From Streptomyces asiaticus (GTDB lineage: Bacteria > Actinomycetota > Actinomycetes > Streptomycetales > Streptomycetaceae): 64,000 nt of DNA. The translations under genes were made by a program, and so were the position numbers. The stretch spans positions 930,001 to 994,000 of the forward strand of contig NZ_JAGSHX010000001.1 of assembly GCF_018138715.1 (NCBI RefSeq), in the 5' to 3' direction. Below the pieces are notes generated by a model. It made no database searches and was not told where the DNA came from. It saw only the letters and a list, made by a program, of their open reading frames with translations. Positions 15,011 through 32,288 of this stretch are shown piece by piece; the stretch's first letter is position 1; the number at the start of each line of letters is the position of its first letter.

Positions 15011-15035
15011 TCAGCGCGTTCCACAGAGAGGTGCA

Positions 15036-15368: not shown

Positions 15369-15428
15369 CCCGCAGTCCGGGGCGACGCGCCGGGCCGTAT
15401 TCTTCCGCCGATCTCAGAATATGAACGC

Positions 15429-16709: not shown

Positions 16710-16715
16710 TCACAC

Positions 16716-17705
16716 TCAGAGCCGAGCGATCACCGGCGCGAACTCGTGTGCGAGGGCCTGCTGGATCGTAAAGTACGTGTAACCCCACTGTTCCCGACGT
16801 TCATGCAGTCGTTCGACGATCTGTAGCACGCTGCCGAGGAGCACGATCGGCGACGTGATCACCTCAGTGGCGGGGGCGCCGAAGAGGTGCTCAAGCTCTG
16901 CGGCGGCTCCGAGTGCGTCGGGCACGACGCCGGCAAAGCGCAGCCAGCCATGGATCTCAAGGTCGTCGAAGCGTGCTCCCGCCGCTTCCCGCACCCAGGT
17001 GAGCTTTCGGTCGATACTGGGTGGGAGTGCGTCGGGCGCGGAGGCGGCCCGTTGCGTACTGGATGGCAAGGACGGGTTCACACCCACGATATCCGCGTGC
17101 GCTCCGGCGAAGGTGAGAACGCGCCTGCCCCCGCCCGCCACGAGGATCGGGGGGCCGCCGACCCGGTGCGGCGTGGGCGTTCCCAGCAATTCCGAGATCC
17201 GGTAGTGCGCCCCGGAGTAGTTGAGCGGGCCGTCACTGAACAGTCCCTTGAGCACCGTGACGTGCTCGATCAGCCGGTCGACGCGGATGCCGGGTGAGGC
17301 CATCGGGATCCCGGAACACCTGTAGTCACGCACCTGGTATCCGGCACCGACGCCCACTTCGAGTCGGCCCTGCGACAGCTGGTCGATGGACGCCAGCTCC
17401 CGGGCGAGCACTGCCGGGTGCCGGAAATCCGCGGCGAGCACGGCCGGGGCGACCCGCAACGTGGTCGTCGCGGCCGCCGCCATGGCCATCGCGGTGATCG
17501 GGCCGTAGCCCTCGTCGAGGTGGTCGGGAACGAACAGCGTCGAGTAGCCCAGTGATTCCAGTTCCCGGGCCGAGTCCGCCCAGGTCCGGCCGGGGAACGG
17601 CGCCATCATCTCCACGCCGAAGCGGAACGGCCGCGGCGCAGGTCCACGAACACGTCCTGGGTACGGGCGCGGGCTCGGCCTCTTGGCAGGTTGTTGCATC
17701 GCCAC
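16716..17705 (-). CDS. LLM-class (luciferase-like) F420-dependent oxidoreductase
   Basis: A 329-aa member of the bacterial luciferase-like superfamily, with a TIM barrel and probable F420 or FMN cofactor. Visible blocks are GYSTLFVPDHLDEGYGPITA, TTLRVAPAVLAADFRHPAVL and QGRLEVGVGAGYQVRDY, as in the MSMEG_2516-like F420 subgroup. GTG 17705 has GGAG at 6 bases. It lies 70 bases downstream of the cyclase-family gene and is probably the last gene of the MFS-cyclase-LLM set. Its likely role is oxidation or monooxygenation of a catabolic intermediate; the substrate is unknown. Confidence 0.87.
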   Translation of the reverse strand: MAMQQPAKRPSPRPYPGRVRGPAPRPFRFGVEMMAPFPGRTWADSARELESLGYSTLFVPDHLDEGYGPITAMAMAAAATTTLRVAPAVLAADFRHPAVLARELASIDQLSQGRLEVGVGAGYQVRDYRCSGIPMASPGIRVDRLIEHVTVLKGLFSDGPLNYSGAHYRISELLGTPTPHRVGGPPILVAGGGRRVLTFAGAHADIVGVNPSLPSSTQRAASAPDALPPSIDRKLTWVREAAGARFDDLEIHGWLRFAGVVPDALGAAAELEHLFGAPATEVITSPIVLLGSVLQIVERLHERREQWGYTYFTIQQALAHEFAPVIARL

Positions 17706-17775
17706 TCGATTCTCCGATCTGTGTTCCGCACAGGACGATCAGCGGTCGACTGCGGCACCTGTCGACCGCGCATCG

Positions 17776-18729
17776 CTACACAAGGGCCAGCGCATTGGCC
17801 GGGGAACCAATTCCGCCTCGCTTGTGCAACGGGGCGCTGGTAAGCAGACCGGAGTAACGACGTTCCCGGTGACAGTATTCAGCGAGCTGCTCCAAGTTGA
17901 ACATTTCTCCAACCGCCATGCCGAGCAGCGCGATGAGCCGGAAATGCAGAAACCCGTCAACTGCCGTGTTGTCGAAGGGCATCACCTCAAGAGCAGGAAC
18001 GTCCGCGGCCACGGCACTGATCCCGTTGTCCCACAACCATTCGAGAACGGCATCGGTGCGTGCCAAGCCCGGACTGCCTTGATCCTGGGTGTTGGCGGCG
18101 AGCCGACGACGTTCGTCTTCGCCCAGTTTCTCGTACCAGGCCGTCCAGCCGAATCGGATCAGCAGGATGTCGCCACGACGCAGTTCGACGTCCTGTGCCG
18201 CACGAATATCCTCCAAGTCCGCAGCGTCGAACGGGACCGACAGGTCGGCATCGATGGGGGCACCGCGGTCCGCGCGATACTGGCAGGCATCCAGGAGCAC
18301 GAAGCGGCCGGCGATTCCGCGCTCGGCCCATACATGTATGCCAAGCGCGTCGCCGACCGTACCGACTTCTCGCCTGGCGTTGTAGAACCCATAGTTCGGG
18401 TGAGCGATATGAGACAGTGCGTCCCACTGGCTGGACCGCTGCGGGTAAAAGCCGTCGTAGCGGTCGTCATTGCCACCGTTCTCTTCCGCGATGACGGTGT
18501 GCACCAACGGCAACCGGCCGAACAACGGAGGGTCGGGCAAGTCCAGATCCCAGTCGAGCGGAAACACCAGCCCAGCCCGCACCAGTCGGGCGGCGTCTCT
18601 CACATGCTCCGGCGTCAGCCGATTGATCGTTCCCGCCTCGTCGTCCTCGCCGAACACCCCCCAACTGGACCCAGGTGGCGTCCTGGCAGCCAACTGCGTG
18701 TAGCTCGGCTCATTTTCACGCATCATCAT
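17776..18729 (-). CDS. cyclase-family (kynurenine-formamidase-like) metal hydrolase
   Basis: A 317-aa protein of the Cyclase family (Pfam PF04199 type), metal-dependent hydrolases acting on amides or cyclic compounds. The usual HGTHxDxxxH motif appears in the variant form SSQWDALSHIAH, known from the QWD subgroup. Further conserved parts are LLDACQYRADRG, LRRGDILLIRFGW and AADVPALEVMPFDN. Its start overlaps the stop of the MFS gene (ATGA), so the two are co-translated and the hydrolase probably acts on the compound the transporter imports. Consecutive ATG codons leave the exact start uncertain by two residues. Confidence 0.85.
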   Translation of the reverse strand: MMMRENEPSYTQLAARTPPGSSWGVFGEDDEAGTINRLTPEHVRDAARLVRAGLVFPLDWDLDLPDPPLFGRLPLVHTVIAEENGGNDDRYDGFYPQRSSQWDALSHIAHPNYGFYNARREVGTVGDALGIHVWAERGIAGRFVLLDACQYRADRGAPIDADLSVPFDAADLEDIRAAQDVELRRGDILLIRFGWTAWYEKLGEDERRRLAANTQDQGSPGLARTDAVLEWLWDNGISAVAADVPALEVMPFDNTAVDGFLHFRLIALLGMAVGEMFNLEQLAEYCHRERRYSGLLTSAPLHKRGGIGSPANALALV

Positions 18730-20069
18730 GCCCTTTCGGCAGAGGTCTCACGCAGGGGTTCCACCGCCGCTGTCCGCTCCACTCGGACTTCCTTGGACAG
18801 CATCACCGGGACAATAGCGACAAGCATGATTCCTCCACCCACCGCCATCGTAGTCGCCAACCGGGCGTGACCGGTCGCGTTCTCGTTGAACCAGGACCCA
18901 CTCCGCTTGACGAGAAACATCCCGGCAACGACCTGGAGACATGACGTGATCCCGGAAAGCGTACCCGTGAATCGCGGTCCGGCGAGTTCCGCCCAGTACG
19001 CGTTCATGGTGCCGAAGTAGATCAGATTCGCGACCATGACCCCGCCGCCGAGCAGCAGCGCCCACGGCACCCACCCCATCGGCACCAGCGCAGCGATGAG
19101 AAACGCGACTCCGCCCAGCAGGAACCCCACGGCTATCCACATACACGTCCGCCCTCCGAACACGCGCTGCAGAACAAGGCCGTTCAGGAACGAAAAGGTG
19201 ACCGGAATTACGGTGATCGCAGGCAGGACAACCGCGACGACATCCGGGTTGACCTTGTCAAGATTGATCAGGCCGAACGACAACCAGTTCAGCGACAACC
19301 AGATCGGGCTGATGAGCAGACCCGAGATGCCGAACAAAATGACACTGCGATTACGCAGCAAACTCAGCATCTCCCGAAACCCGACCCGGCCGAGCTGCCG
19401 CGCGGCAGCCGCCTCGACTCCTTCGATCAGAGCAATCTCGCCCGCACTGATTCCGCGCATCCGCCGTGGCTCGTCGGAGATCCAGAACAGCAAGATCAAC
19501 GGAGGTACGGTGAAGACGGCCACCGCGATGAATGCCAACTGCCACGAGGCGTGGTTCGCGATCGGGAGTGCGATCAGCGGTGTGACCATCGACGAGATAC
19601 CGGCACAGGCACCGGTCGTCAACGAGGTTACCTTGGTCCGCTCATGGGATGGGAACCAGGTCGCCAGAATTCGAAATGTCGGCGCCAGCAACAGACCGAA
19701 CACGAACCCGAACGCCAGATTTCGCCACCACATTTCATTGTAGGTGCGCACAAAGACCATACTCACCGACAGCACGGTGACCCCGAAGCCGCAGGTCAGC
19801 AGCATTATCTTCGACCCAAAACGGTCGGCGAGCACGCCGGCGATGGCCAGCATCGGAGCATACCCGAGCAGATACGCGGACAACACGCCCGACACCTGAG
19901 CGGGAGTCAGCGCCAGCGAATCCGACCAGAACGGGGCAAGTTGCGAGACCTTGGCCTCGTCAAGCCACACTCCGAAGTTCAGCGCGACGACGACGCCGAA
20001 TACAAACCAGCGCCGGCGTGAAATACTTTCCGGCGGGGGGCCAGTGGTCTGCCGTGACGAAGATTCCAT
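18726..20069 (-). CDS. MFS transporter, anion:cation symporter (ACS)-like
   Basis: A 447-aa major facilitator with about 12 hydrophobic segments. The N-terminal half has LSAYLLGYAPMLAIAGVLAD, the inter-helix motif RFGSK, and FRILATWFPSHERTKVTSL, features of the ACS group that takes up organic acids and sugar acids. The cytoplasmic loop holds EIALIEGVEAAAARQLGRVG. It opens a minus-strand unit with the cyclase and LLM genes. About 175 bases without a gene separate it from the aminotransferase; these include a short TTCATGAA palindrome at 20105-20112. Confidence 0.87.
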   Translation of the reverse strand: MESSSRQTTGPPPESISRRRWFVFGVVVALNFGVWLDEAKVSQLAPFWSDSLALTPAQVSGVLSAYLLGYAPMLAIAGVLADRFGSKIMLLTCGFGVTVLSVSMVFVRTYNEMWWRNLAFGFVFGLLLAPTFRILATWFPSHERTKVTSLTTGACAGISSMVTPLIALPIANHASWQLAFIAVAVFTVPPLILLFWISDEPRRMRGISAGEIALIEGVEAAAARQLGRVGFREMLSLLRNRSVILFGISGLLISPIWLSLNWLSFGLINLDKVNPDVVAVVLPAITVIPVTFSFLNGLVLQRVFGGRTCMWIAVGFLLGGVAFLIAALVPMGWVPWALLLGGGVMVANLIYFGTMNAYWAELAGPRFTGTLSGITSCLQVVAGMFLVKRSGSWFNENATGHARLATTMAVGGGIMLVAIVPVMLSKEVRVERTAAVEPLRETSAERA

Positions 20070-20244
20070 CGAGACGATCTCCTCGGAATGCGGAGCGTAT
20101 TACGTTCATGAATCACCGCTGCATCCCCCTTCATTGGCGACGTCGCCACCTGGCCAATGCAAGCGCACAAAGGCGGTTCCCGATCTGAAGCCGGCCCTGT
20201 CCCAGTGCTCATTCCGCGGGCCACGGCAGCCGGACATCGACTGG

Positions 20245-21486
20245 TCAGCTTCCCGTGTCCCGTAGGTCCGCGAACGCCTGGTCGGTGCGGTCGAGGATGG
20301 CGTCGATGTCGGCATCGGTGTGCGCGGCCGAGAGGAACCAGTTGTGCCATGGGTGCAGGTACACGCCGCGCCGGACCGCGGCCTCGGCCCATGCGGTGCC
20401 CAGGCTCAGGTCGTCGTCGCCCGCGAAGTACAGGACGGGCATCTGCACAGGACCGGTCTGGCGGATCTCGTACCCGTGGGCGGCCGCCTGCGCCGCCAGG
20501 CCCTCCCGCAGCCGGGTGCCGGTACGGAGCATGTCCGGCAGCGCCTGTCCGTTGCGCAGTTCGCGCAAGGTGGCCAGGCCAGCGGCGAGCGGCACCGCCG
20601 CGTACCAGAACGAGCCCGTCACATAGACCGAACTCACAGCGTCGCGTAGCGCGTCGATCCCTGTAACAGCGCCAAGTGGCTGCCCGTTGGCCAGCGCCTT
20701 GGACCAGGCCGAAAGGTCGGGCCGGACGCCGAGTGGTTCCCAGCTGCCCCCGAGGTGCAGCCGGTGTCCGCAGCGGACGTCGTCGAGGATCAGCACGGCG
20801 CCGGTGCGGTCGGCCAGCGCCCGCAGGCCATGGGCGAACGCCGGGTCGGCGAGTTCCTGGTCGCGCCGCACGTCGTGGCGCATGGGGCAGACGATGATCG
20901 CCGCGAGGTCGTCGCCCGCCTCGGCCGCGGCCCGTTCCGCAGAGAGCAGGTCGTTGTACTCGTAGCGGATCAGGTGGGTCTGGTCCTCCGCGGTGACGCC
21001 CTGGCCCCTCAGCGAGCACCACGGCACCGCGCCGTGGTAGGCGCCAGCCGCGACCAGGACCTTCCGCTTGCCGGTGGCTGCCCGTGCGATGGTGACACAC
21101 GTGGTGGTGGCGTCGGTGCCGTTCTTGCAGAACATGGCCCAGTCCGCGGACGGCACGGTGTCCACGAGCAGTTCGGCGTAGTCGACGGCGACCGGGCTCG
21201 TCCCGTCGAGGCAGTCGCCGTGTTCGAGCTGGTCCAGGATTGCCTTGGTGACTCCCGGGTGCCGGTGCCCCAGCACGACCGGTCCCCAGCCGCACATGAG
21301 GTCGAGGTACTCCCGGCCATCGGCGTCGGTGACGCGGCAGCCGTTGCCGGACACCATGAACTGCGGGTGCGCGCCGCTGAAGTCCGTTACGCGCATGTGG
21401 CCATACATACCCCCGGGGATGACCTGGCCGGCGCGTTCGCGCAGGGCCAGCTCACGCTGGCCGAGCGTGGTTGGTGCGGTGGTCAC
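20245..21486 (-). CDS. class III PLP aminotransferase (glutamate-1-semialdehyde aminomutase-like)
   Basis: A 413-aa fold-type I PLP enzyme. Motifs are DADGREYLDLMCGWGPVVLG, CKNGTDATTTCVTIARAATG, LILDDVRCGHRLHLGG (cofactor Asp) and LSAWSKALANGQPLGAVTG with the Schiff-base Lys. Sequence and length resemble GSA aminomutase relatives found in catabolic and secondary pathways, not the haem enzyme. It probably transfers or moves an amino group on the substrate of the surrounding cluster. It lies 275 bases downstream of the transketolase genes in the same direction; that gap holds no clear gene. Confidence 0.87.
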   Translation of the reverse strand: MTTAPTTLGQRELALRERAGQVIPGGMYGHMRVTDFSGAHPQFMVSGNGCRVTDADGREYLDLMCGWGPVVLGHRHPGVTKAILDQLEHGDCLDGTSPVAVDYAELLVDTVPSADWAMFCKNGTDATTTCVTIARAATGKRKVLVAAGAYHGAVPWCSLRGQGVTAEDQTHLIRYEYNDLLSAERAAAEAGDDLAAIIVCPMRHDVRRDQELADPAFAHGLRALADRTGAVLILDDVRCGHRLHLGGSWEPLGVRPDLSAWSKALANGQPLGAVTGIDALRDAVSSVYVTGSFWYAAVPLAAGLATLRELRNGQALPDMLRTGTRLREGLAAQAAAHGYEIRQTGPVQMPVLYFAGDDDLSLGTAWAEAAVRRGVYLHPWHNWFLSAAHTDADIDAILDRTDQAFADLRDTGS

Positions 21487-21761: not shown

Positions 21762-22784
21762 TCATGTGGCGTCCCCCTCCGACGTGGTGAGCAGTTCTTC
21801 GGCAACGGCGACGATCCCGGGCGCGTCGAGACGGTAGTGGGCGTAGAGGCCGGCCGGTGGTCCGACGGGCACGTGCTCGTCGGGCACCCCGTGGCGGCGG
21901 AAGGGGACGCGGGCATCGGCGTCGAACAGCACCTCGGCGACCGCGGTGCCCAGCCCTCCCGTCAGGTTGCCCTCCTCGACCGTGAGGATCGCGCCTGTCG
22001 TGTTCGCCGCGTCGAGCACGGCGTCGCGGTCGAGCGGTGAGATCGTCCACATGTCCACGACCCGGGCCGAAACCCCTCGCTCAGCGAGGATTTCGGCTGC
22101 CCGGAGGGCCGGGTGCACTTCGGAACCGGTGGCGATGATCGTCAGGTTCGAGCCGTCGCGGACGGTCTGCGCCTGCCCGACCCGCAGGTCCGGGACCGTG
22201 TCGTACACTTCGGGATCCCGGCCGCGGCCCAGGCGCAGGTACATCGCATGCGGATGGTGCAGGGACAGGCGCAGCAGGGCGCGCAAGTGGTTGGCGTCGG
22301 TAGCGCACACAACGGTGAGATCGGCGATGGTCCGCATCATGCCGAGGTCTTCGAGGCTGTGATGGCTGGTGCCGTAGAACCCCATCGACATCCCGGAGTG
22401 GTGGCCGACGATCCGCACCGGGAGATCCGGGTAGGCGCAGTCGGTGCGGATCTGCTCTGCGCACAACAGCGCGGCGAACGAGCCGAACGTGGCGGCGAAG
22501 GGCAGGTGGCCGCAGGACGCCATGCCGGCCGCGATCGTGACCATGTTCTTCTCGGCGATGCCGACGTTGACAAAGCGGCCGGGGTGGCGTGCCGCGAAGT
22601 CCAGCGCGCGATTGGAGCGGCCGAGATCGGCCGTGAGCACGACGATCCGTGGGTCGTGCTCGGCCAGGTCGGCCAGTTCCTCGCCGAAGACGAACGCCGG
22701 GATCGCCCGTGTGTCCGTGCCGTCCACCGATCGGGCGTCCTTGAGTCCGTTGAAGATCTCGGACTGATCCTGTCCCATGGTCAC
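21762..22784 (-). CDS. transketolase, C-terminal subunit
   Basis: A 340-aa protein with the pyrimidine-binding and C-terminal domains of a split transketolase. Seen are FVNVGIAEKNMVTIAAGMAS with the catalytic Glu context, FGSFAALLCAEQIRTDCAYP, HSLEDLGMMRTIADLTVVCA and the C-terminal block IIATGSEVHPALRAAEILAE. The first possible start, GTG 22784, overlaps the N-subunit stop. ATG 22778 is an alternative, and AGGAGG lies upstream of both. Together with the next gene it forms one ThDP enzyme that moves two-carbon ketol units. Split transketolases of this kind are often assigned to specialised sugar catabolism. Confidence 0.9.
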   Translation of the reverse strand: MTMGQDQSEIFNGLKDARSVDGTDTRAIPAFVFGEELADLAEHDPRIVVLTADLGRSNRALDFAARHPGRFVNVGIAEKNMVTIAAGMASCGHLPFAATFGSFAALLCAEQIRTDCAYPDLPVRIVGHHSGMSMGFYGTSHHSLEDLGMMRTIADLTVVCATDANHLRALLRLSLHHPHAMYLRLGRGRDPEVYDTVPDLRVGQAQTVRDGSNLTIIATGSEVHPALRAAEILAERGVSARVVDMWTISPLDRDAVLDAANTTGAILTVEEGNLTGGLGTAVAEVLFDADARVPFRRHGVPDEHVPVGPPAGLYAHYRLDAPGIVAVAEELLTTSEGDAT

Positions 22785-23614
22785 CGCACCTCCTCATGGC
22801 GCAGCTCCGCCATGACGTCGTCGTAGTCGGTGCCGACCAGATTGCCCACGTGCCAGTCGGGGCTCAGTTCCATGCGCTGGACGCCTTTTCCCTTCACCGT
22901 CTCGGCGACGATCAACTGCGGGACCCGGCCGTCGCTGTCCGGCAGCGCCGCGAACACGTCGAGCAGGGCCTTGATGTCGTGGCCGTCGACGCGGTGGGTC
23001 TGCCAGCCGAACGCCGCGAACCGTTCCTCGATGGGCTCGGCCGGCATGACGTCGCGGACGAATCCGTCGATGCCGAGCTGGTTGGCGTCGACGATCGCGA
23101 CAAGGTTGCCGAGTCCGAAGTGGCGCGCGGACATCGCCGCCTCCCAGACCTGACCCTCGGCAAGTTCGCCGTCGCCGAGCATGCAGTAGGTGCGGTAGTC
23201 CAGGGTGGACATGCGAGCGGCCAGCGCCATGCCCACGGACACCGACAGGCCGTGCCCCAGCGAGCCGGAGGAGAAGTCGACACCCGGGATCTTCTTCATG
23301 TCGGGGTGGTCGCCGAACGGGCTGCCCAGGCGCGTGTAGGTGTCCAGTTCGGACGGATCGAAGTACCCCAGGTCGGCCAGTACCGGATAGAGACCGATCG
23401 CCGCGTGGCCCTTGCTGAGTACAAACCGGTCCCGCTCGGGCCAGTCCGGCCGGCGCGGGTCGACGCGCAACTGGTGGTAATAGAGAACGGCGAGCAGCTC
23501 GGCGCAGGAGAACACGGCGCTGTAATGGCCCGCACCGGCGATACGGGTGAGCCGCACGGTCTCGGTCCGCACGAACTTCGCGCGGTCGGCGAGTTCTTCG
23601 GCGGCGGTGGGCAT
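22781..23614 (-). CDS. transketolase, N-terminal (ThDP-binding) subunit
   Basis: A 277-aa N-terminal half of a split transketolase. The ThDP motif is present: LGDGELAEGQVWEAAMSARH followed by NLVAIVDANQ. Upstream are LSKGHAAIGLYPVLADLGYF and SGSLGHGLSVSVGMALA, with the conserved His and Gly residues. ATG 23614 with GGAGAAT upstream is preferred over a longer frame. Its stop overlaps the start of the C-terminal subunit, so the two are made in step. It follows the dimethylformamidase-like gene with no gap (stop at 23616), which ties amide hydrolysis to ketol transfer in one operon. Confidence 0.9.
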   Translation of the reverse strand: MPTAAEELADRAKFVRTETVRLTRIAGAGHYSAVFSCAELLAVLYYHQLRVDPRRPDWPERDRFVLSKGHAAIGLYPVLADLGYFDPSELDTYTRLGSPFGDHPDMKKIPGVDFSSGSLGHGLSVSVGMALAARMSTLDYRTYCMLGDGELAEGQVWEAAMSARHFGLGNLVAIVDANQLGIDGFVRDVMPAEPIEERFAAFGWQTHRVDGHDIKALLDVFAALPDSDGRVPQLIVAETVKGKGVQRMELSPDWHVGNLVGTDYDDVMAELRHEEVR

Positions 23615-23615
23615 A

Positions 23616-25805
23616 CTATTCTCCGTTCGTGGTGGCAGGGCCGAAGACGGAACCGGCGGTGTCGCGAAAGCGGTCCAGGATGTTGGCCGTGACGCGGGCG
23701 GTGTCGTTGTCCCCACCGTTGTGGGTCATGGCGGTCGACCAGGCGATGGATCCGACCGAGAACACCGCACCGCCACCGGGCCGTCCGAAGAGGACGATGT
23801 CGGCCCGTACTTTGGGATGGATCCCGGGTGGAGGCTCGGCATAGCCGTGGTCGGTCTCCTCCGGCACCAGCCGGATCTTCTCCGAGTGCCCCTCGGACGA
23901 GGCAAGGACGACCGCGTCGGGTGGGGTGCCGAGGGTGACGTCGGCCCGGTCCAGTTCGTCACCCGCGGCGCCGCGAAGCCCGGGGCCCTCGTCGCCGAAC
24001 ACCTCACCCACACCGGCGCTGACGCCGTCGAACACCCAGGACACGGTGGCATCGGCGCTGGCGCCGGAGCGGCGATAGCCACTGGCGTGGTCATGTCCCT
24101 GGGCGGTGAAACCGACGCCGGCCAGCACGTTCGGCGCCCGCCCGCGCAGGCGCCACAGACCACCCGGCTCGCCCGTCGCGGAGAGGTTCTCCTCACCGGG
24201 ATCGGACACCCAGGTGGCGACTCCCGCGTGCCCCCGGCGGATTTCGATGGCGTCGGGATGCCCGGGATGCCGCGCGGTGACCTGATAGAAACCGTTGCCG
24301 CCCAGGTACATCAGCCGTCCGCAGGCACGGGTGTACGCGAGGTAGGAGTCGAGCATGCCCGCGGAGCAGTACTCGGGGTGCGAACCGGTGATCACCACGC
24401 GGTACTGGCCGAGCAGCGCACCGCCTTCGCGTTCGATCTCGTCGTCGGTCACCACGGCGTAGTGCTCGCCCCGCGCGTCGAGCCATGCGAGTAGCTGCAG
24501 GTCCTGAGCGAAGTGCCGGAACCCACGGGTGGTGGGCGTGTAGTAGTCAGGGCGGATGTTGACAATCGGGCGCAGCCTCGACGAGAAGAAGACGCCACTG
24601 CCGTCGGTGTGGACGTCGTAGAGCGAGCGCCCGAACTCGGGGTGCTCGACCAGCCACCGGTCGCGCTCGTCGACACCGCGTCGCTCCCCGTAGATGCCGA
24701 TCCGCTCGTCCTCGTACTCCGCGTAGGTGCGCCAGTTCGCGTAGGCGAGATACGTCCAGGTCGGGAGGACCACCAGCACCGGCGCCTCGTGCGCGGCCGG
24801 GGTGACGACGAACGGGACCCGGTCCACGTCTTCCCCCGCGGTGACCTTCAACGCGTAGACGCCGCTCGGCAGGCCGTCCGGGATCGTCCAGATGAGGTCG
24901 GGTACCCAGCCGGCGTCGGCGAGGTCGTCCTCGTGCAGGTGCAGTGCGTCGAACTCAGCCGGAGCGCGGCGGAAGTCGGTCTCCGCTCCTGTCCACAGAG
25001 GGCCTGGCACGCCGCGGCCCGGCAGGTGGCGGATCTCCGCACCGGCGGTGAGACCGCCACGGTCGGGGACCCGCCTGCCGCCGGGATCGACCGCGAGGTC
25101 GAGCACGCTGGTGCTGTCCGCGGAGAGCAGTGTCAGCGGGTCGGCGCCGGCCGCGAGCGCGCCGGTGGTGGTGTGCGGCCAGGCCGTCGCGGACACAACC
25201 GGGCGGGCCACCTTGCCGTTGAACGTATGCCCGAGGCCGCCGGTGCCGCGCCCGTCGCCGCCCAGGAGCAACGCCGGCCGGACCAGGCGAACCGGCTCGG
25301 TCCGGCACGACACGGACAGCTCCGGGCGGCCGGGCCGGTGCAGGGACAACAGCACCGTGCCCGTCTGGTCGATGGTCGCGGCCACGAACACCCAGACCTG
25401 TTCCTCGACCGGGGCGGCCAGTTCGGCGACGGCCCGCTGCCCCGACCGCAGCGTCACGCCGTCGGCCGACACGCTCAGGACGAGGTCACCGACCGCCAGG
25501 AGCGGGCGCGGGTAGGGCAGGGTCGGCCGGCACCACACGGCCAAGCCGACCGCGCCGAGGTTCTGCCGTACCTCGGCCATGGCGTATGAGCCGGAGGTCG
25601 TGACCTGCTTCCGTCCTTCAAGGACTTCGGGGAGGTCCGCAGCCACTGGCTCCTCGATCAGCGGTACGCCGTGCCGGAGCGGACCACCCGGCCTGCGCAG
25701 ACGGACGATCTCCGGCCGCATCCCGGGATGCTCCGAACTCAGATGGAAGGTCACATGTTCGCCGGGCCGGGCCGACAGCCGGTCCGCGTATCCGACCAGC
25801 CTCAT
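23616..25805 (-). CDS. N,N-dimethylformamidase-type large subunit (iron amidohydrolase family)
   Basis: A 729-aa protein related to the large subunit of N,N-dimethylformamidase (DmfA2). The N-terminal half is a lectin-like beta domain (about residues 1-300). The C-terminal half has WTYLAYANWRTYAEYEDERI, FFSSRLRPIVNIRPDYYTPT and VITGSHPEYCSAGML. From memory, the Paracoccus enzyme binds Fe through two Tyr (399, 440) and Glu521 with His519 nearby. Here Tyr355, Tyr396, His476 and Glu478 have matching spacing to within one residue, so the metal site looks intact. ATG 25805 overlaps the stop of the solute-binding protein gene. No small subunit (DmfA1, about 130 aa) is encoded nearby. The substrate is likely an amide other than dimethylformamide. 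Confidence 0.82.
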   Translation of the reverse strand: MRLVGYADRLSARPGEHVTFHLSSEHPGMRPEIVRLRRPGGPLRHGVPLIEEPVAADLPEVLEGRKQVTTSGSYAMAEVRQNLGAVGLAVWCRPTLPYPRPLLAVGDLVLSVSADGVTLRSGQRAVAELAAPVEEQVWVFVAATIDQTGTVLLSLHRPGRPELSVSCRTEPVRLVRPALLLGGDGRGTGGLGHTFNGKVARPVVSATAWPHTTTGALAAGADPLTLLSADSTSVLDLAVDPGGRRVPDRGGLTAGAEIRHLPGRGVPGPLWTGAETDFRRAPAEFDALHLHEDDLADAGWVPDLIWTIPDGLPSGVYALKVTAGEDVDRVPFVVTPAAHEAPVLVVLPTWTYLAYANWRTYAEYEDERIGIYGERRGVDERDRWLVEHPEFGRSLYDVHTDGSGVFFSSRLRPIVNIRPDYYTPTTRGFRHFAQDLQLLAWLDARGEHYAVVTDDEIEREGGALLGQYRVVITGSHPEYCSAGMLDSYLAYTRACGRLMYLGGNGFYQVTARHPGHPDAIEIRRGHAGVATWVSDPGEENLSATGEPGGLWRLRGRAPNVLAGVGFTAQGHDHASGYRRSGASADATVSWVFDGVSAGVGEVFGDEGPGLRGAAGDELDRADVTLGTPPDAVVLASSEGHSEKIRLVPEETDHGYAEPPPGIHPKVRADIVLFGRPGGGAVFSVGSIAWSTAMTHNGGDNDTARVTANILDRFRDTAGSVFGPATTNGE

Positions 25806-26854
25806 CCGTTGACCCACTTCGTCCACCGCCGGGTGGCCTCGTCGAGGTTCTTCGCCCACCAGGCGTTGTCCCGTACCACGACCGTGCCCTTGGCCTTGGT
25901 GTCATCGGCGACGAACGCGCCGATCGCGGCGTCACTGGTCTTGCCGGCCTTCGAGTTCGCCGCGCCATAGGGCTGCTGATCGACGACGGCCTTCTGGTTC
26001 TTGGTCCCGATCAGGGAGTTGATCAGGGCGTATGCCTGGTCCTGGTGCGGGGCACCCTTCACTATGGTCAGCACGTCGTGATACTTGATCGGCTGGTTGA
26101 ACACGACGCCGAGGTTCGCGCCGTTCTTGACGGCGTCGTAGGCGCGGCCGGGCCACGCGAGCATCATGTCGACCTCGCCCGACTGCAACGCCTGGGTCTG
26201 CTGCGCGCCGGTGTCGTAGAACCGGGTGTTCTTCCGGATCTTGTCCAGCGTGGCGAACGCCTTGTCGTAGTCGAGCGGGTAGAGCTTGTCGGCCGGCACC
26301 CCGCCGGCCAGCAGCGCCGTTTCCATACCCGCGTCCTTGGCGAAGTTCATGACGCCGCGGGTGCCGGGGAACTTCTTCGTGTCGTAGAAGTCCGCCCAGC
26401 TCCTCGGCGGGTGCGACTTGTAGGTGTCCTTGTTGTAGACGAGCACGAAGTACGAGTTCAGCACCGGGACCCCGCAGTCGGTCATCTGCGACTTGTCGAG
26501 CCCGCCGGTGTGGATTCTGCTGTAGTCGATCTTCTCGAAGAGGGTGCCGCACTTGGCCATGGCCGCGTACGGCGTGGAGTAGTAAACGTCCCAGGTGGGC
26601 TTGGAGCCCCGGACCATCGCGGTCAGCTTCGCCTCATTGTTCGGTGACTCCGTGGACACCGTGATGCCCTTGCGGGACAGATCGGCGTACGCGTTCTGCT
26701 TGAACAGCTTCTCCAGCGCCCCTCCGGTGTTGCTGAACACCACGGGCTTCCCGCCTCCGGCGGAACTGCCAGCGGTTCCGAAACAGGCCGTCATCGTCAG
26801 TCCCAGCAAGACGGCCAGCACCAGCGCCTTGCCGAGACGTCCATTGCGTCGCAC
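25802..26854 (-). CDS. ABC transporter substrate-binding lipoprotein (PotD/Fe-type)
   Basis: Extracytoplasmic solute-binding protein of about 350 aa. GTG 26854 is chosen because GGGAGAGGGG lies 4 bases upstream and a palindromic operator lies just before. It begins RRNGRLGKALVLAVLLGLTM with lipobox TAC, so it is a lipoprotein. Mature-part motifs are TGGALEKLFKQNAYADLSRK, NSYFVLVYNKDTYKS and SGEVDMMLAWPGRAYDAVKN, as in the spermidine/putrescine-type class of binding proteins. It is transcribed away from its permease and ATPase genes, which start at 27061, so both operons probably respond to the same signal. The ligand is unknown. Confidence 0.87.
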   Translation of the reverse strand: MRRNGRLGKALVLAVLLGLTMTACFGTAGSSAGGGKPVVFSNTGGALEKLFKQNAYADLSRKGITVSTESPNNEAKLTAMVRGSKPTWDVYYSTPYAAMAKCGTLFEKIDYSRIHTGGLDKSQMTDCGVPVLNSYFVLVYNKDTYKSHPPRSWADFYDTKKFPGTRGVMNFAKDAGMETALLAGGVPADKLYPLDYDKAFATLDKIRKNTRFYDTGAQQTQALQSGEVDMMLAWPGRAYDAVKNGANLGVVFNQPIKYHDVLTIVKGAPHQDQAYALINSLIGTKNQKAVVDQQPYGAANSKAGKTSDAAIGAFVADDTKAKGTVVVRDNAWWAKNLDEATRRWTKWVNG

Positions 26855-26872
26855 GAGAGCCCCTCTCCCATA

Positions 26873-26887
26873 TTTCATAATATGAAA
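26873..26887. promoter_or_regulatory. 15-bp palindrome TTTCATAATATGAAA, likely IclR operator
   Basis: Perfect dyad TTTCATA-A-TATGAAA 19 bases upstream of the binding-protein start. It shares the TTTCA...TGAAA frame with the dyad at 27025-27039. The cluster ends with an IclR gene, and IclR regulators bind short palindromes of this size. Confidence 0.6.
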
Positions 26888-27024
26888 CGCTGCCCGTATT
26901 GAGAAAAGCATGGAGTCAGGGCACAACTCGCGTCAAGTCCCGCGCACCCGTCGATCGACGCATTACTTGTGCGTTAATTCCGGTGCCAACGATTGACACT
27001 TGACTCAACGGAGCACACACTCTG

Positions 27025-27039
27025 TTTCACTTCGTGAAA
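27025..27039. promoter_or_regulatory. 15-bp palindrome TTTCACTTCGTGAAA, likely IclR operator
   Basis: Dyad TTTCAC-TTC-GTGAAA 21 bases before the permease start. A TTGACA -35-like box lies at 26993-26998, so binding here would overlap the plus-strand promoter. Same length and outer bases as the dyad at 26873. Confidence 0.6.
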
Positions 27040-27060
27040 TGAGTATCGAAGAAAGAAACG

Positions 27061-27987
27061 GTGCCGATGGTAGTGACACCCCCGTCGAGCTCAGCCGCCC
27101 ACTCCACGCCCCGCCCACGACCGCCCGCCAGAGCCCGCACGGCCCGGCGTCTCGGCCTCCTGCTCGCGGCGCCGGCAGTCGCGGTGCTGGTCGTCTTCTT
27201 CGTCGTGCCCGCACTCCGCCTGCTCTGGCTCTCGGTGACCGACCCGGTCCCCGGCCTGGGCAATTACACGGCGATTGCCACGGACGACGTGGCGCTGACC
27301 GTCGTGCTGCGAACCCTCGGCATGGCGGCGATCGTGACGGTCGTCTGCTTGCTCCTCGCCTATCCGTACGCGTATCTGATGACGATCTCTACTCCGCGCT
27401 GGCGGGCGGTCCTGATCGCCGTCGTCCTCATCCCGTTCTGGACCTCGCTCATGGCACGCACCTTCGCCTGGGTGGTGCTGTTGCAGGACAACGGGGTGGT
27501 CGACACCCTGCTGCGCGGGGCTGGGATCGGGCCGACGCGCCTGCTGGGCACCACAGCAGGGGTCACGCTCGCGATGGCGCAAGTCATGCTGCCGTTCGTG
27601 GTGCTGCCGGTATACACGACGATGCGCGGGATCAACCGCCGCCTGGTCGATGCGGCGCTCTCGCTCGGCGCCCGCCCCGCCATCGCCTTCCTGCGGGTCT
27701 ACCTCCCACTGTCCCTGCCGGGCGTCGCCGCCGGAGCAACCCTGGTGATGGTGCTGTCCCTCGGGTTCTACGTGACGCCGTCGCTCGTCGGCTCGCCCAA
27801 GCAGTCCATGCTCGCCCAGTTCATCTCCGTACAGGTCAACCAGCTCGTGGACTTCGGTGGGGCCGGCGCGCTCGCGGTCGCCCTGCTCGTGATCACGCTC
27901 CTGCTTCTCGGCGGCGTCCAGTTCGCGACACGACGCAAGGGCACACGGGCGAACAGTGCCCCCATATCGGGAGGGATACCCCTATGA
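27061..27987 (+). CDS. ABC transporter permease (PotB-like)
   Basis: A 308-aa inner-membrane permease of the spermidine/putrescine-type transporter class. Six hydrophobic segments follow a proline-rich N-terminus (first helix LGLLLAAPAVAVLVVFFVVP). The EAA-like loop that contacts the ATPase is LVDAALSLGARPAIAFLRVY LPLS. The start could be GTG 27061 or ATG 27067. Its stop overlaps the next permease start (ATGA). It is the first gene of the plus-strand operon and pairs with the divergent binding protein. Confidence 0.88.
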   Translation: MPMVVTPPSSSAAHSTPRPRPPARARTARRLGLLLAAPAVAVLVVFFVVPALRLLWLSVTDPVPGLGNYTAIATDDVALTVVLRTLGMAAIVTVVCLLLAYPYAYLMTISTPRWRAVLIAVVLIPFWTSLMARTFAWVVLLQDNGVVDTLLRGAGIGPTRLLGTTAGVTLAMAQVMLPFVVLPVYTTMRGINRRLVDAALSLGARPAIAFLRVYLPLSLPGVAAGATLVMVLSLGFYVTPSLVGSPKQSMLAQFISVQVNQLVDFGGAGALAVALLVITLLLLGGVQFATRRKGTRANSAPISGGIPL

Positions 27988-28775
27988 AGACCGGGCGTGG
28001 CCTGCGCGCCTTCCTGATCACGTGCGGCGTGCTCACCGGAGCGTGGCTCGTCGTGCCGACCCTCGTCGTGATCCCGATCAGCTTCTCCGGCGAGAACAGC
28101 TTCGCCTTCCCGCCGAGCTCGTGGAGCCTGCGCCACTACACCACGTTCTTCACCGAGCCCAGCTGGCTGACCTCACTACTGGTGTCGCTCCAGCTCGCGC
28201 TGCTCGTCACCGCGGTGGCGACCGTGTTGGGCACGACGGCTGCGTTCGCCCTCGCCAGGCGGACGTTCGTCGGCAAGGGCATCGTCGAGGGGCTGTTCAT
28301 GGCACCCCTGATCGTTCCGGGGATCGTGGTCGCCGTCGCGATGTACGCCGCCTTCCTCGGCTGGGGGCTGATCGGCACCCCGATCGGGTTCATCGCCGCC
28401 CACACCGTGCTCGCCCTGCCCTTCGTGACGGTGAACGTGACCGCCTCGCTGGCCGGCTTCGACCGGGTGCTGGAGCGTGCTTCGGCGACTCTCGGTGCAT
28501 CCCCATGGACGACGTTCCGGTCGGTGACCTTTCCACTGATCCGGCCCGGCGTACTGGCCGGCGCCCTGTTCGCCTTCGTGACCTCGTTCGACGAGGTCGT
28601 CGTGTCCCTGTTCATCCAGTCCCCCACGCTGCAGACCCTTCCGGTGCGGATGTTCACCTCGGTCACCAACGAGGTCGATCCGACCATCGCGGCGGCATCG
28701 ACCGTCGTGCTCGTGGTCTCCACCATCCTGCTGGGACTCGCAACGATCACGAGGAGGAACCACCATGCGGCCTGA
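27984..28775 (+). CDS. ABC transporter permease (PotC-like)
   Basis: A 263-aa second permease. Helices include LITCGVLTGAWLVVPTLVVI and LQLALLVTAVATVLGTTAAF. The EAA loop is LERASATLGASPWTTFRSVT. Typical PotC-like ends are present (FAFVTSFDEVVVSLFIQSPT, TLPVRMFTSV). ATG 27984 overlaps the previous stop, and its 3' end overlaps the ATPase gene start. It forms the heterodimeric membrane channel with the preceding permease. Confidence 0.9.
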   Translation: MKTGRGLRAFLITCGVLTGAWLVVPTLVVIPISFSGENSFAFPPSSWSLRHYTTFFTEPSWLTSLLVSLQLALLVTAVATVLGTTAAFALARRTFVGKGIVEGLFMAPLIVPGIVVAVAMYAAFLGWGLIGTPIGFIAAHTVLALPFVTVNVTASLAGFDRVLERASATLGASPWTTFRSVTFPLIRPGVLAGALFAFVTSFDEVVVSLFIQSPTLQTLPVRMFTSVTNEVDPTIAAASTVVLVVSTILLGLATITRRNHHAA

Positions 28776-29874
28776 TCGCCATGGCGGTGCACGCATCGAG
28801 ACCCGTGACGTGTGCAAGCGGTACCGGGGCTCGTCCCAGTACGCGGTCGACACCGTCAACCTGACGATCGAGGCAGGTGAGTTCATGACCCTGCTCGGGC
28901 CCAGCGGCTCGGGCAAGACCACCACGCTGAACATGATCGCCGGATTCGAGGACGTGACCTCCGGTCGGATCCTGGTCGACGACGCCGACATCGCCCCGGT
29001 GCCGACCTACCGGCGTGACCTCGGCATGGTGTTCCAGAACTACGCGCTGTTCCCGCACATGACCGCGGCCGAGAACGTCGCGTTCCCCTTGCGCCGGCGC
29101 AAGGTGGGCAAGAAGGAGATCGAGCGTCGCGTCGCGGAAGCCCTCGACCTGGTGCGCCTGAACGAGCATGGCAACCGCCTGCCGGCCCAGCTGTCCGGCG
29201 GCCAGCAGCAGCGTGTCGCCCTGGCCCGCGCTGTGGTGTTCAAGCCACGGGCCCTGTTGCTGGACGAACCGCTGGGCGCGCTGGACAAGAAGCTGCGCGA
29301 GTCACTGCAACTGGAGATCTCCCGGCTGCACTCCGAACTCGGGATCACGTTCGTGTTCGTCACCCACGACCAGGAGGAGGCACTCGCGCTCTCCGATCGC
29401 ATCGCCGTGTTCCGCGACGGTCGGATCGAGCAGGTCGGAAGGCCGGACGAGCTGTACGAGAACCCCGCCTCCCACTTCGTGGCCACTTTTCTCGGCGACT
29501 CCAACGTGTTCACCGGGCAGATCCGCGACGGCGTCCTCGACACCGGCTGGTGCGAACTGCGTACGGAGGGCGAGCTCCCAGCGGGACCGGTCGTGCTCAT
29601 GGTGCGGCCCGAACGGCTGCGCATCGGCGCGCCGGCCGAACCCGGGGCCAATGTGCTCTCCGCTACCGTGACCGACGTCGTGTACCAGGGCGCGTTCCGG
29701 CGGGTCCTCGTCGAGTTCGACGGCGGCACCACCGGCCAGGTCCGGGACATCACCTCGGGCACGCCGGTGACCGCCGGGCAGCGGATCGAGGTGCACTGGC
29801 CCGGCCACGCCGGTGTACTCGTACCAGGTGACGAAATCGACCAGCCGCGACGCGTGGCGGTGAGCGCGCAGTGA
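28765..29874 (+). CDS. ABC transporter ATP-binding protein (PotA-like)
   Basis: A 369-aa ATPase. Walker A is LLGPSGSGKTTTLNMIAG, the Q-loop VFQNYALFPHMT, the signature LSGGQQQRVALARA, Walker B ALLLDEPLGALD and the switch His VTHDQEEAL. A C-terminal TOBE/regulatory domain of about 120 residues (VVLMVRPERLRIG...) places it in the PotA/MalK-like CUT1/POPT class. It overlaps the upstream permease and the downstream aldolase genes, so it sits in one tightly coupled operon. It powers uptake of the unknown cluster substrate. Confidence 0.93.
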   Translation: MRPDRHGGARIETRDVCKRYRGSSQYAVDTVNLTIEAGEFMTLLGPSGSGKTTTLNMIAGFEDVTSGRILVDDADIAPVPTYRRDLGMVFQNYALFPHMTAAENVAFPLRRRKVGKKEIERRVAEALDLVRLNEHGNRLPAQLSGGQQQRVALARAVVFKPRALLLDEPLGALDKKLRESLQLEISRLHSELGITFVFVTHDQEEALALSDRIAVFRDGRIEQVGRPDELYENPASHFVATFLGDSNVFTGQIRDGVLDTGWCELRTEGELPAGPVVLMVRPERLRIGAPAEPGANVLSATVTDVVYQGAFRRVLVEFDGGTTGQVRDITSGTPVTAGQRIEVHWPGHAGVLVPGDEIDQPRRVAVSAQ

Positions 29875-30506
29875 ACTCCGACGTCATGACGGCTCGTCGG
29901 CAGGTCGCCGAGACCGGCACACGTTTGACGGCCGACGGGCTGGTGCTCGGCACCGCGGGCAACATCAGCGTCCGGGTCGGCGACCTGGTGGCCATCTCGC
30001 CGTCCAGCATTCCCTATCACCTGGTGACCGCCGAGGACGTCAGCGTGGTCGATCTCGCCGGCGGGCAAGTCGCCGGCCTGCCACCGTCGTCCGAGACGCC
30101 CATGCACCTCGCCATCTACGCCAACACCGACGCGAATGCCGTGGTGCACCACCACGGCCTGGCCAGTGCCGCGGTGTCCACAGCAGTCAGCGCACTCCCG
30201 CCCCTTCACTACTACGCGCTTCAGCTCGGCGGCCCGACCCGCGTCGCCCGGTACGCGACGTTCGGCACCGAGGAACTGGCCCGTTCCGTGCTCGCCGCGC
30301 TGGAAGACCGCACGGCGGCGCTGATGCAGAATCACGGCGCCGTCGCGCACGGCGACACCCTCGACCGTGCCTACGACCGGGCCCGACTCCTCGAATGGCT
30401 GTGCAACCTGCATATCCAGGCTCATCAGATGGGCAGTCCGCGCGTGCTCAGCGAAGCGGAGCTCGCGGACGTCACCCGGCACAAGGCGGAAAGGGCGGCA
30501 TCATGA
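29871..30506 (+). CDS. class II aldolase/adducin-family enzyme
   Basis: A 211-aa metal-dependent aldolase of the fuculose/ribulose-phosphate type. Residues 20-60 carry VLGTAGNISVRVGDLVAISP, then PSSETPMHLAIYANTDANAV and the zinc-binding VVHHHGLAS (HxH). Later LMQNHGAVAHGDTLDRAYDR supplies the third His. Starts at GTG 29871, overlapping the ATPase stop. Relatives cleave phosphorylated sugars to dihydroxyacetone phosphate plus an aldehyde, or decarboxylate 3-oxo-tetronate phosphates. With the following kinase it probably forms a phosphorylation-then-cleavage step. Confidence 0.88.
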   Translation: MNSDVMTARRQVAETGTRLTADGLVLGTAGNISVRVGDLVAISPSSIPYHLVTAEDVSVVDLAGGQVAGLPPSSETPMHLAIYANTDANAVVHHHGLASAAVSTAVSALPPLHYYALQLGGPTRVARYATFGTEELARSVLAALEDRTAALMQNHGAVAHGDTLDRAYDRARLLEWLCNLHIQAHQMGSPRVLSEAELADVTRHKAERAAS

Positions 30507-31483
30507 AGGTCGTATGCGTCGGGGCGCACATATTCGACGTGCTCGGCCACCCGGTAGGCGAGATCCCACCCGGTCAGGGGCGGCTGGCACTGGAACAGAT
30601 CCGGGTGACCGCGGCGGGTACCGCCGGGGGCACCGCGGTCGACCTCGCCAAGCTGGGCGCGGAGGTGATCAGCTTCGGCGCCATCGGCGACGACACGGCG
30701 GGCCGGGTGCTGCGGCTCCTGCTCGCCGAGAACGGGGTCGACGAACGCCTCGCGGTCAAGCCGGGCCGGGCCACGCCGTCGACGATCCTGCCGATCAGAC
30801 CGAACGGGGAACGCCCCTCCCTGCACGCGTCCGGCGCGATGGACATGCTCACCGCGGACGACATCGACTGGGACGCCGTGGCCGAGGCGGACGTCCTGCA
30901 CATCGGCGGACCGGACGCCCTCGGGGACTTCTCCGTCGACGTGCTGCCCAGGCTGCTCCGATTCGCCCGCGAGCACGGCACCGTCACCACCATGGACTTC
31001 CTGCGGACAAGCGTGTCACCGGAGGTCGTCGAGCTGCTGCGGCCGTGCTGGGCGAACACGCGGTACCTGCTGCCCAACGACGACCAGATCCGCGCGATCA
31101 CGCAGATCGAGGACCTCCGCCTGGCCGCCCGGACCATGCGCGCACACGGAGTCGGCACGGTCATCGTGACCAGAGGCGGGGACGGCTCGCTGGTCGTGGA
31201 CGAGGCTCTGGCCGAGGAGATCCCCGCCTTTCGGATTCCGGTCGTCGACACCACTGGCTGCGGCGACGGATACACGGCCGGATTCATCGTCGGGCTGTGC
31301 CGGAACCAGGACCTGCTGTCCTCGGCGCGCCTGGGTACCGCGGCGTCGGCGCTGGTGGCGCAGGGGCTCGGCTCAGACGCTGGAATCGTCGACCTGCCAC
31401 GGACGCTAGGCTTCTTGTCCGAACGGCAGACGGATCTGCTTCACCGGAACGAGGAGGACATCACCGACTGTGGCCGGGCCTGA
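30503..31483 (+). CDS. PfkB-family carbohydrate kinase
   Basis: A 326-aa ribokinase-like kinase. ATG 30503 overlaps the aldolase stop and has AAGG upstream. The N-terminal lid region carries AAGTAGGTAVDLAKLGAEVI. The C-terminal signature PVVDTTGCGDGYTAGFIVGL has the catalytic Asp in the GCGD anion hole. Note DTTGCGD in place of the common DTTGAGD, a conservative change. It most likely phosphorylates the imported or deaminated polyol/sugar before aldolase or transketolase action. Kinase family is secure, substrate unknown. Confidence 0.9.
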   Translation: MKVVCVGAHIFDVLGHPVGEIPPGQGRLALEQIRVTAAGTAGGTAVDLAKLGAEVISFGAIGDDTAGRVLRLLLAENGVDERLAVKPGRATPSTILPIRPNGERPSLHASGAMDMLTADDIDWDAVAEADVLHIGGPDALGDFSVDVLPRLLRFAREHGTVTTMDFLRTSVSPEVVELLRPCWANTRYLLPNDDQIRAITQIEDLRLAARTMRAHGVGTVIVTRGGDGSLVVDEALAEEIPAFRIPVVDTTGCGDGYTAGFIVGLCRNQDLLSSARLGTAASALVAQGLGSDAGIVDLPRTLGFLSERQTDLLHRNEEDITDCGRA

Positions 31484-32288
31484 CGCGTTGGAGAATGAGG
31501 ACAAGGTGAGTTCCGGGGGCAGCCCGGTCCGGGTGCTGGTCAAGGCGATGGCGGTGCTCGAACTACTCGCCGAGACGTCGGACGAGCTGAGCCTCGGCGA
31601 GATCGCGGGGCGGCTCGACCTCAACAAGAGCACGTGTCACCGGATCCTGACCACCCTGATGGCCGGCGACTTCGTGGAGCGGCCCTCTCCCGGCGCATAC
31701 CGACTGGGCATCGGCGCGTTCCGTGTCGGTAGCGCGATGGCCCGGCGGTTCAGCATCCGCGACCGTGCCCTGCCCGCGATGCGTGAGGTGTACCGGCAGA
31801 CCGGGGAAACCGTGTTCCTGATCGTGCTACGCGGCGACGAGGCGGTTTGTCTGGAACGCCTCGACGGCCGCTACGCGGCCACGCACGTACTCCAAGTGGG
31901 CGGCACACTGCCGCTGTACCTGGGTGCCGGTCCCAAGCTACTCCTGGCCCAGCTTTCCGAATCCCAGTTCGAAAGCTATCTGGCCGGGCCGTTCCAGCGC
32001 CGCGTCGGCGGCCCCAGTGAAGCACGGCTACGCGAACAGGTGGCCGAAATCCGCCGCGACGGCTACGCGGTCAGCCACGACGACATCGAGGAGGGCGTCA
32101 CCGCGCTGAGCGTCGGAGTACGCGACCACCTCGGCAAGATCACCGCGGCTCTGAGCCTGAGTGGGCTCTCCACACACCTGCCGGAGTCCGAACGCCCCCT
32201 TCACCTCCGCCGTCTCAAGGAGGCGGCGGAGGAAGCCTCACGAGCCATGGGCTTCCGCGCCTCCGCTACCGAACGCCCCGCGACTTGA
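31470..32288 (+). CDS. IclR-family transcription regulator
   Basis: A 272-aa regulator. The N-terminal winged helix is LVKAMAVLELLAETSDELSL then EIAGRLDLNKSTCHRILTTL. The C-terminal GAF-like ligand domain includes RGDEAVCLERLDGRYAATHV, LYLGAGPKLLLAQLSE and EEGVTALSVGVRDHLGKITA. GTG 31470 lies within the kinase gene, so it is the last member of the catabolic operon and probably controls it. The two TTTCA..TGAAA palindromes in the divergent promoter region are its most likely sites. Confidence 0.9.
   Translation: MAGPDALENEDKVSSGGSPVRVLVKAMAVLELLAETSDELSLGEIAGRLDLNKSTCHRILTTLMAGDFVERPSPGAYRLGIGAFRVGSAMARRFSIRDRALPAMREVYRQTGETVFLIVLRGDEAVCLERLDGRYAATHVLQVGGTLPLYLGAGPKLLLAQLSESQFESYLAGPFQRRVGGPSEARLREQVAEIRRDGYAVSHDDIEEGVTALSVGVRDHLGKITAALSLSGLSTHLPESERPLHLRRLKEAAEEASRAMGFRASATERPAT

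Follow-up and report, generated by a model that had tools for sequence, protein, structure and literature searches.

We analysed a 64,000-nucleotide stretch of the Streptomyces asiaticus genome (contig NZ_JAGSHX010000001.1, positions 930,001 to 994,000; hereafter the window, to which all coordinates refer) and identified at 20245–32288 a real, conserved catabolic cluster of eleven genes. It encodes an amidohydrolase of the N,N-dimethylformamidase (DMFase) type, here called DMF-type, a split transketolase (TK), a class III aminotransferase resembling FumI (AT3), a PfkB-family kinase, a class II aldolase, an ATP-binding cassette (ABC) transporter with its solute-binding lipoprotein (SBP), and an IclR-family protein, and is probably governed by a single regulator. 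The protein families are known and their combination is apparently undescribed, since no description of it was found in open-licence PMC text, where looking into sphingoid pathways, split TKs and DMF-type proteins together with TK led no further; an earlier sequence-based note on this DNA (the original prediction) had likewise known of no such pathway, and none characterised in the open-licence literature matched. We estimate at about one in two the probability that the cluster serves the regulated catabolism of an N-acylated 2-amino-1,3-diol, HOCH2-CH(NH-acyl)-CHOH-R, with a sphingoid-base-like or amino-polyol head, a substrate class that is moderately supported.

In the proposed pathway, the ABC transporter would import the amide, the DMF-type enzyme would strip the acyl group and AT3 would transaminate the freed amine to give HOCH2-CO-CHOH-R, which the split TK would cleave between C2 and C3, with an aldose phosphate accepting the two-carbon unit and R-CHO set free. 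A compound bearing a 4-hydroxyl could also be phosphorylated on C1 by PfkB and cleaved between C3 and C4 by the FucA-type aldolase, yielding dihydroxyacetone phosphate and an aldehyde; the IclR protein would switch both arms. Judged by known chemistry, HOCH2-CO-CHOH-R would be a fitting TK donor, a CH3 group at the HOCH2 position, which fumonisin has, would fit an acetoin-dehydrogenase-type cleavage, and a 4-hydroxyl would turn the C1 phosphate into a substrate for a FucA-like aldolase. We know of no TK that cleaves a deaminated amino-diol, and this one would be the first, if the proposal is true.

The N-acyl amino-diol reading is supported by a layout kept in 13 genomes and, loosely, in a further one, by the similarity of AT3 to an enzyme that deaminates at C2, by the partners of FumI-clade genes as compared with controls and the three kinds of thiamine diphosphate (ThDP) enzyme among them, and by FucA-like partner aldolases, invariant residues of the DMF-type protein and the concentration of a rare palindrome in the divergent promoter.

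Extent, conservation and regulation of the cluster

Pfam profile searches assigned families to 14 open genes between 16716 and 32288: on the minus strand an LLM oxidoreductase, a cyclase-family hydrolase, a major facilitator superfamily (MFS) transporter, AT3, the C-terminal and N-terminal TK chains (TK-C and TK-N), the DMF-type protein and the SBP, and on the plus strand two permeases, the ATPase, the aldolase, the PfkB kinase and the IclR regulator. Six 4-base overlaps are present (18726–18729, 22781–22784, 25802–25805, 27984–27987, 29871–29874 and 30503–30506). The original prediction had named the same genes and families and remarked on the many overlaps, although it counted 13 genes; its left boundary, at 16716, has to be moved to 20245, because the LLM, cyclase and MFS genes (16716–20069) are not conserved with the unit in 13 relatives and are ruled out as members of the system. 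They form a separate same-strand group, and relatives of the cyclase, up to 42% identical, occur on Rhodococcus and Sinorhizobium plasmids.

These 13 syntenic loci comprise six close ones (L023–L028; 68–83% identity) among the best 80 of 580 DMF-type relatives from a genome-contig scan, and seven from 297 sampled genomes of the family of Pseudonocardia acaciae, 11 of which hold a close AT3 (four were already in the set). Stretches of 19–22 kb each were compared by tblastn at 1e-8. Proteins close to the DMF-type one (about 63–83%) come from Saccharopolyspora, Amycolatopsis, Pseudonocardia, Actinomycetospora and Actinomadura; within the window's own genus, matches at 1e-20 were found in 9 of 392 genomes (its own included), the other eight being 38–45% identical over the matched part. 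The common layout is IclR-PfkB-aldolase-ATPase-permease-permease, divergent from SBP-(second DMF-type)-DMF-type-TK-N-TK-C-AT3. Nine genes (TK-N, TK-C, AT3, DMF-type, ATPase, both permeases, IclR and SBP) are kept in all 13 loci, and 12 also carry the kinase and the aldolase, so that the joint conservation by which the original prediction was to be checked holds in all but P. acaciae L024. A second DMF-type paralog, 58–60% identical to that of the window, is present in six loci (L024, L025, L027, L028, L132 and L133); in L027 it lies downstream, with the moved SBP. Neither the cyclase nor the MFS transporter has a match in the 13 stretches, and the sole LLM match, in L024 (33% over 44% of its length), lies beyond IclR, outside the cluster. 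No further window genes were found beyond AT3 in the 13 relatives, except in L027 (the moved SBP, the DMF-type paralog and a 25% IclR match).

In a phylogenetic tree, the AT3 proteins of the clusters form one clade (support 100/100), with that of the window beside Saccharopolyspora soli (100/79), which makes a transfer of the cluster into the window's lineage a reasonable supposition. A search of a class sample with TK-C at 1e-100 returned the window's own genome alone among 197, and AT3 was matched at 1e-60 in one of five genomes that carry other DMF-type loci. A looser version of the cluster, with a different kinase family, is found on a plasmid of Rhizobium SSA_523 (L139), in the order OtnK-type kinase (truncated where the locus ends), aldolase, ATPase, two permeases, SBP, a 116-residue open reading frame (ORF) with no Pfam match, two PF20254 genes, TK-N, TK-C, a GntR-like gene on the opposite strand and AT3.

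The palindrome TTTCA-N5-TGAAA has two exact sites in the window, both in the divergent promoter, and three sites with one mismatch allowed, against 0.09 expected. Five exact places exist in the whole genome (11.88 Mb), two of them here, and the genes adjoining the other three show no clear link to the cluster. The relaxed form TTTC[AG]N5[TC]GAAA occurs 18 times in the loci of the 13 relatives, at least once in each and twice in five: 15 sites fall in the gap that separates the aligned portions of permease 1 and SBP (the DMF-type gene taking the place of SBP in L027), three (one each in L134, L135 and L136) lie 24–27 bases within the aligned SBP start, and none was found elsewhere in these loci. 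Paired palindromes in the divergent promoter, with only five genome-wide, make it likely that one regulator controls both arms, and the IclR protein of the cluster is probably their binder. If the SBP started at TTG 26926, the left palindrome would fall inside its gene; judged from the lipoprotein signal, the start is perhaps GTG 26854, and the true SBP start is similarly doubtful in L134, L135 and L136.

The FumI-like aminotransferase and its neighbourhoods

Among solved structures, AT3 matches the aminopentol aminotransferase 6hbs, which is FumI and acts on a 2-amino-3-hydroxy substrate, with 407 bits, followed by glutamate-1-semialdehyde aminomutase (GSAM) with 180, beta-transaminases with 113–118 and a C-6' aminotransferase with 110; NCBIfam aminomutase matches fall well below cut-off. 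FumI deaminates hydrolysed fumonisin B1 at C2 and has been studied for feed detoxification (PMC2933618). The FumI clade of 40 rows has a support of 93/97, just under the strong mark, and long branches lead to the six outgroup rows. The FumI-like character of AT3 shifts the likely substrate from the sugar-like compound of the original prediction towards a 2-amino-1,3-diol; its deamination step is kept, and its order of import, hydrolysis, deamination, phosphorylation, cleavage and two-carbon transfer fits the evidence.

The neighbourhoods of 25 FumI-clade aminotransferases outside the 14 clusters were searched by tblastn at 1e-10 with twelve queries, six of them from loci within the set. The set holds 11 plasmid loci (of 13 records at at least 49.6% identity; H46 and H47, from Shinella and with scores near-identical to H45, were left out), 11 loci from 296 genomes sampled within a class, L060, and L126 and L128, which are second FumI-clade copies from cluster-bearing genomes. 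A further 18 records of the plasmid search (H61–H78, 10 annotated hemL) were not included. A single family (f89) supplies ten of the 25 loci, and L141, L142 and L162 resemble one another. A kinase was found in 21/25 loci (15 with the window PfkB query, six with an OtnK query), and 24/25 have one or more partners from the list of kinase, class II aldolase, ThDP enzyme, DMF-type protein, amidase and penicillin acylase, a count that window-derived queries alone also reach. The same queries found none of these (0/7) beside class III aminotransferases outside the clade that this plasmid search had also yielded, one of which (L177, 41%) is sister to the FumI clade in the tree.

Three kinds of ThDP enzyme adjoin FumI-clade genes: split TK (L139, L143), an acetoin-dehydrogenase type (L141, L142, L162) and a TPP_enzyme_C type (L060). 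In Agrobacterium and Shinella, AT3 is paired with an acetoin-dehydrogenase-type E1, L162 being a Sinorhizobium relative; Variovorax L143 combines AT3, GntR, split TK, amidase and penicillin acylase, and in Variovorax L144, 63% identical to FumI, a small ORF precedes a DMF-type gene. It is possible, though we put it forward tentatively, that bacteria have a general modular route for N-acyl 2-amino-1,3-diols with sphingoid-like heads, made of amide hydrolysis, FumI-type transamination and C–C cleavage by ThDP enzyme or kinase/aldolase, with interchangeable kinases (PfkB, OtnK) and ThDP enzymes (TK, acetoin-dehydrogenase type, TPP_enzyme_C type).

In ten f89 genomes (L164–L173) and in L161, PfkB stands beside a FumI-clade aminotransferase with no TK or DMF-type matches, possibly a separate use of the pair; f89 is probably Streptosporangiaceae, since Nonomuraea L161 groups with its loci. 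In Agrobacterium L185 (5007–8154), downstream of a split TK lies a class III aminotransferase that does not belong to the FumI clade, a further pairing of TK with an aminotransferase.

Enzymes of the cluster and competing explanations

The DMF-type protein scores 282.8 bits on PF20254 (cut-off 27) and is best matched, among solved structures, by N-acetyl-(R)-beta-phenylalanine acylase (8huy, 330 bits) and DMFase (6lvb, 309 bits). In DMFase, Y399, Y440 and E521 are iron ligands with H519 nearby, and the N547A and E657A mutants, as well as the Paracoccus large chain without its small subunit, are inactive (PMC7686228). Window residues Y373, Y414, E496, H494, N522 and E635 align with Y399, Y440, E521, H519, N547 and E657, respectively, and are invariant across 39 aligned sequences, the window's own included. 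No small-subunit gene was found in the neighbourhood of the DMF-type gene, where the 4-base SBP overlap on one side and the TK-N start just past the stop on the other leave no room for one adjoining; the label DMF-type amidohydrolase is therefore preferred to DMFase.

TK-N and TK-C are separately encoded chains with TK domains. Residues aligned with human S345, H416 and R474, presumably the phosphate-binding ones, are kept in the TK, the PfkB kinase has YdjH and sulfofructose kinase as nearest solved structures, and the SBP resembles mannopine and agropine binders as well as those of gamma-aminobutyrate (GABA) and polyamines. Since TK, PfkB and FucA-type aldolases are usually sugar-phosphate enzymes, these features would suit an amino-sugar or amide-sugar route, the view taken in the original prediction, in which AT3 would take the amine of an N-acyl sugar derivative and kinase, aldolase and TK would handle sugar phosphates. 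We regard this as unlikely, given that AT3 is much nearer to aminopentol aminotransferase than to the C-6' aminotransferase and that, by the family search of the window proteins, the cluster encodes neither a sugar isomerase nor an epimerase. Catabolic split TKs occur in apulose catabolism, the nearest hint in the original prediction; based on the split TK alone, it gained no further support, and no paper on the apulose TK turned up in open-licence literature.

With the 8huy acylase as nearest solved relative of the amidohydrolase, one could also think of an N-acyl beta-amino acid, processed by acylase and beta-transaminase to a hydroxylated keto acid that would be phosphorylated and cleaved as in 3-oxo-tetronate catabolism; indeed, two of the three related-cluster kinases tested pass the NCBIfam 3-oxo-tetronate kinase cut-off. 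This is improbable, however, in view of the low scores of AT3 with beta-transaminases and of the Arg after MYGHM, which occupies what we take to be the carboxylate-binding position of GSAM and varies (R/N/S/A) among AT3 orthologs. The partner aldolases, moreover, reach 91–111 bits on the OtnC decarboxylase model (cut-off 250). The window aldolase scores best with the NCBIfam ribulose-1-phosphate aldolase and FucA models, both above OtnC and below cut-off; one or other of these models also exceeds OtnC, again below cut-off, for the partner aldolases of L140, L141, L145 and L163 (Proteobacteria), and FucA/ribulose-1-phosphate aldolase exceeds it in 3/3 tested aldolases paired with OtnK kinases.

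The relation of AT3 to FumI could also mean that the cluster detoxifies or scavenges one particular sphinganine-like natural product or antibiotic amide that resembles fumonisin or chloramphenicol; the latter is an N-acyl 2-amino-1,3-diol whose structure suits the chemistry. We give this little credence: the cluster has no carboxylesterase for fumonisin side chains, and the GMC oxidoreductase, threonine aldolase and hippurate hydrolase listed for chdABCDER, a proposed chloramphenicol cluster of Nocardia, are all absent from the window families, which rules out that known cluster (PMC13400229). That the divergent arms, of which L024 lacks the kinase and aldolase, are two unrelated neighbouring operons is highly improbable, as both arms stay together in 13/13 relatives with palindromes confined to their common divergent promoter.

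Several observations nevertheless weigh against an N-acyl amino-diol as substrate. AT3 is 47% identical to FumI, whereas three newly tested transaminases acting on hydrolysed fumonisin share 62–74% with the two known ones (PMC9858248). L024 lacks the kinase and aldolase in its cluster, and its genome gave, at 1e-15, a single kinase match of 28% identity; no partner was found in FumI-clade locus L146; and the family search revealed no aldehyde dehydrogenase in the cluster. The relatives of the SBP suggest a polar ligand and thus disfavour long-chain ceramides, a long hydrophobic sphingoid being odd for a transporter with a GABA/opine-like binding protein. TK is no general partner of the DMF family: among the best 80 of 580 DMF-type relatives it was matched only at the six close loci, and in the five examined of 78 plasmid DMF-family records no TK was listed. 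Nor is a nearby amide hydrolase special to the FumI clade, since the haloarchaeal plasmid controls L181–L183 have, by annotation, a ceramidase-domain gene near an out-of-clade class III aminotransferase, perhaps another amide-then-transaminate unit. Finally, Tyr replaces human TK D424, to which we ascribe a role in the pocket, in 14/14 cluster TKs; it was rejected as proof of an unusual donor, because split TKs of other loci share it (3/3, and the best 120 TK homologs, 118 with GFYGTSHH and two also with Tyr at that position). At this position L139 and L143, both proteobacterial, carry Leu in their TKs, and the pocket residues do not discriminate.

Surroundings and relation to known systems

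The features are collected in Table 1; the likely starts of TK-N and the DMF-type gene differ from those of the longest ORFs.

Table 1. Genes and putative operators of the cluster, with the haloarchaeal gene pairs (locus coordinates)
Feature	Position	Strand	Basis
Class III aminotransferase, FumI-like (AT3)	20245..21486	-	PF00202; best solved relative 6hbs, 407 bits, next 180; 47% to FumI; FumI-clade tree
Split transketolase C-terminal chain (TK-C; pyrimidine + C domains)	21762..22784	-	PF02779, PF02780; best solved relative 6yaj; 13/13 syntenic loci
Split transketolase N-terminal ThDP-binding chain (TK-N)	22781..23614	-	PF00456; best solved relative 6yak; likely start 23614
DMF-type iron amidohydrolase large chain	23616..25805	-	PF20254; best solved relatives 8huy acylase, 6lvb DMFase; likely start 25805
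Solute-binding lipoprotein (SBP)	25802..26926 (longest ORF)	-	PF13416; likely start GTG 26854
Palindrome TTTCATAATATGAAA, putative operator, SBP-arm side	26873..26887	none	
Palindrome TTTCACTTCGTGAAA, putative operator, permease-arm side	27025..27039	none	
ABC permease 1	27061..27987	+	PF00528; 13/13 syntenic loci
ABC permease 2	27984..28775	+	PF00528 (seen within longer ORF); 13/13 syntenic loci
ABC ATPase	28765..29874	+	PF00005, PF08402; 13/13 syntenic loci
Class II aldolase, FucA/ribulose-1-phosphate aldolase-like	29871..30506	+	PF00596; 12/13 syntenic loci
PfkB-family kinase	30503..31483	+	PF00294; nearest solved YdjH, sulfofructose kinase; 12/13 syntenic loci
IclR-family regulator	31470..32288	+	PF09339, PF01614; 13/13 syntenic loci
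Ceramidase-domain gene + class III aminotransferase, haloarchaeal plasmids	L181 9944-12991; L182 9944-15088; L183 9959-12658		

Tn3-family transposase domains flank the cluster at 13738–14265 (in a short left ORF of 175 residues) and 55382–57496, and a protein with trypsin-like and NACHT domains is encoded at 6870–9608. A second copy of 3188–20970 (about 17.8 kb, 99.4–99.9% identical) stands at the start of contig C4 (1–17737) and breaks off within AT3, where the contig ends; either a genuine duplication or an artefact of assembly could account for it.

If the modular route is true, it would be a bacterial alternative to sphingosine-phosphate lyase chemistry. The proposal would also give FumI-like aminotransferases a metabolic setting, predict a route for amino-diol C–C cleavage and point to a function for one group of DMF-type amidohydrolases; since the clade is present in Actinomycetes and Proteobacteria, identification of one substrate would help to annotate many clusters.

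Among known systems, FumI of Sphingopyxis sp. MTA144 (6hbs) is the nearest solved relative of AT3, and the logic seems common to both, an amine being freed and then transaminated; in contrast to the fumonisin cluster of that strain, the present cluster has no carboxylesterase and combines an amidohydrolase, a split TK, a kinase and an aldolase. Paracoccus DMFase (6lvb) has the same PF20254 large chain and identical six active-site residues, whereas the window protein lacks an adjoining small-subunit gene and is nearer, among solved structures, to N-acetyl-(R)-beta-phenylalanine acylase. Pairs of OtnK and class II aldolase adjoin FumI-clade aminotransferases in Proteobacteria, while the window uses PfkB, and the partner aldolases are more FucA-like than OtnC-like, with scores below curated cut-offs. 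The two-chain domain split of the TK is that of Carboxydothermus (6yaj/6yak), and what sets it apart from known split transketolases is its linkage to an amide hydrolase and a FumI-like aminotransferase.

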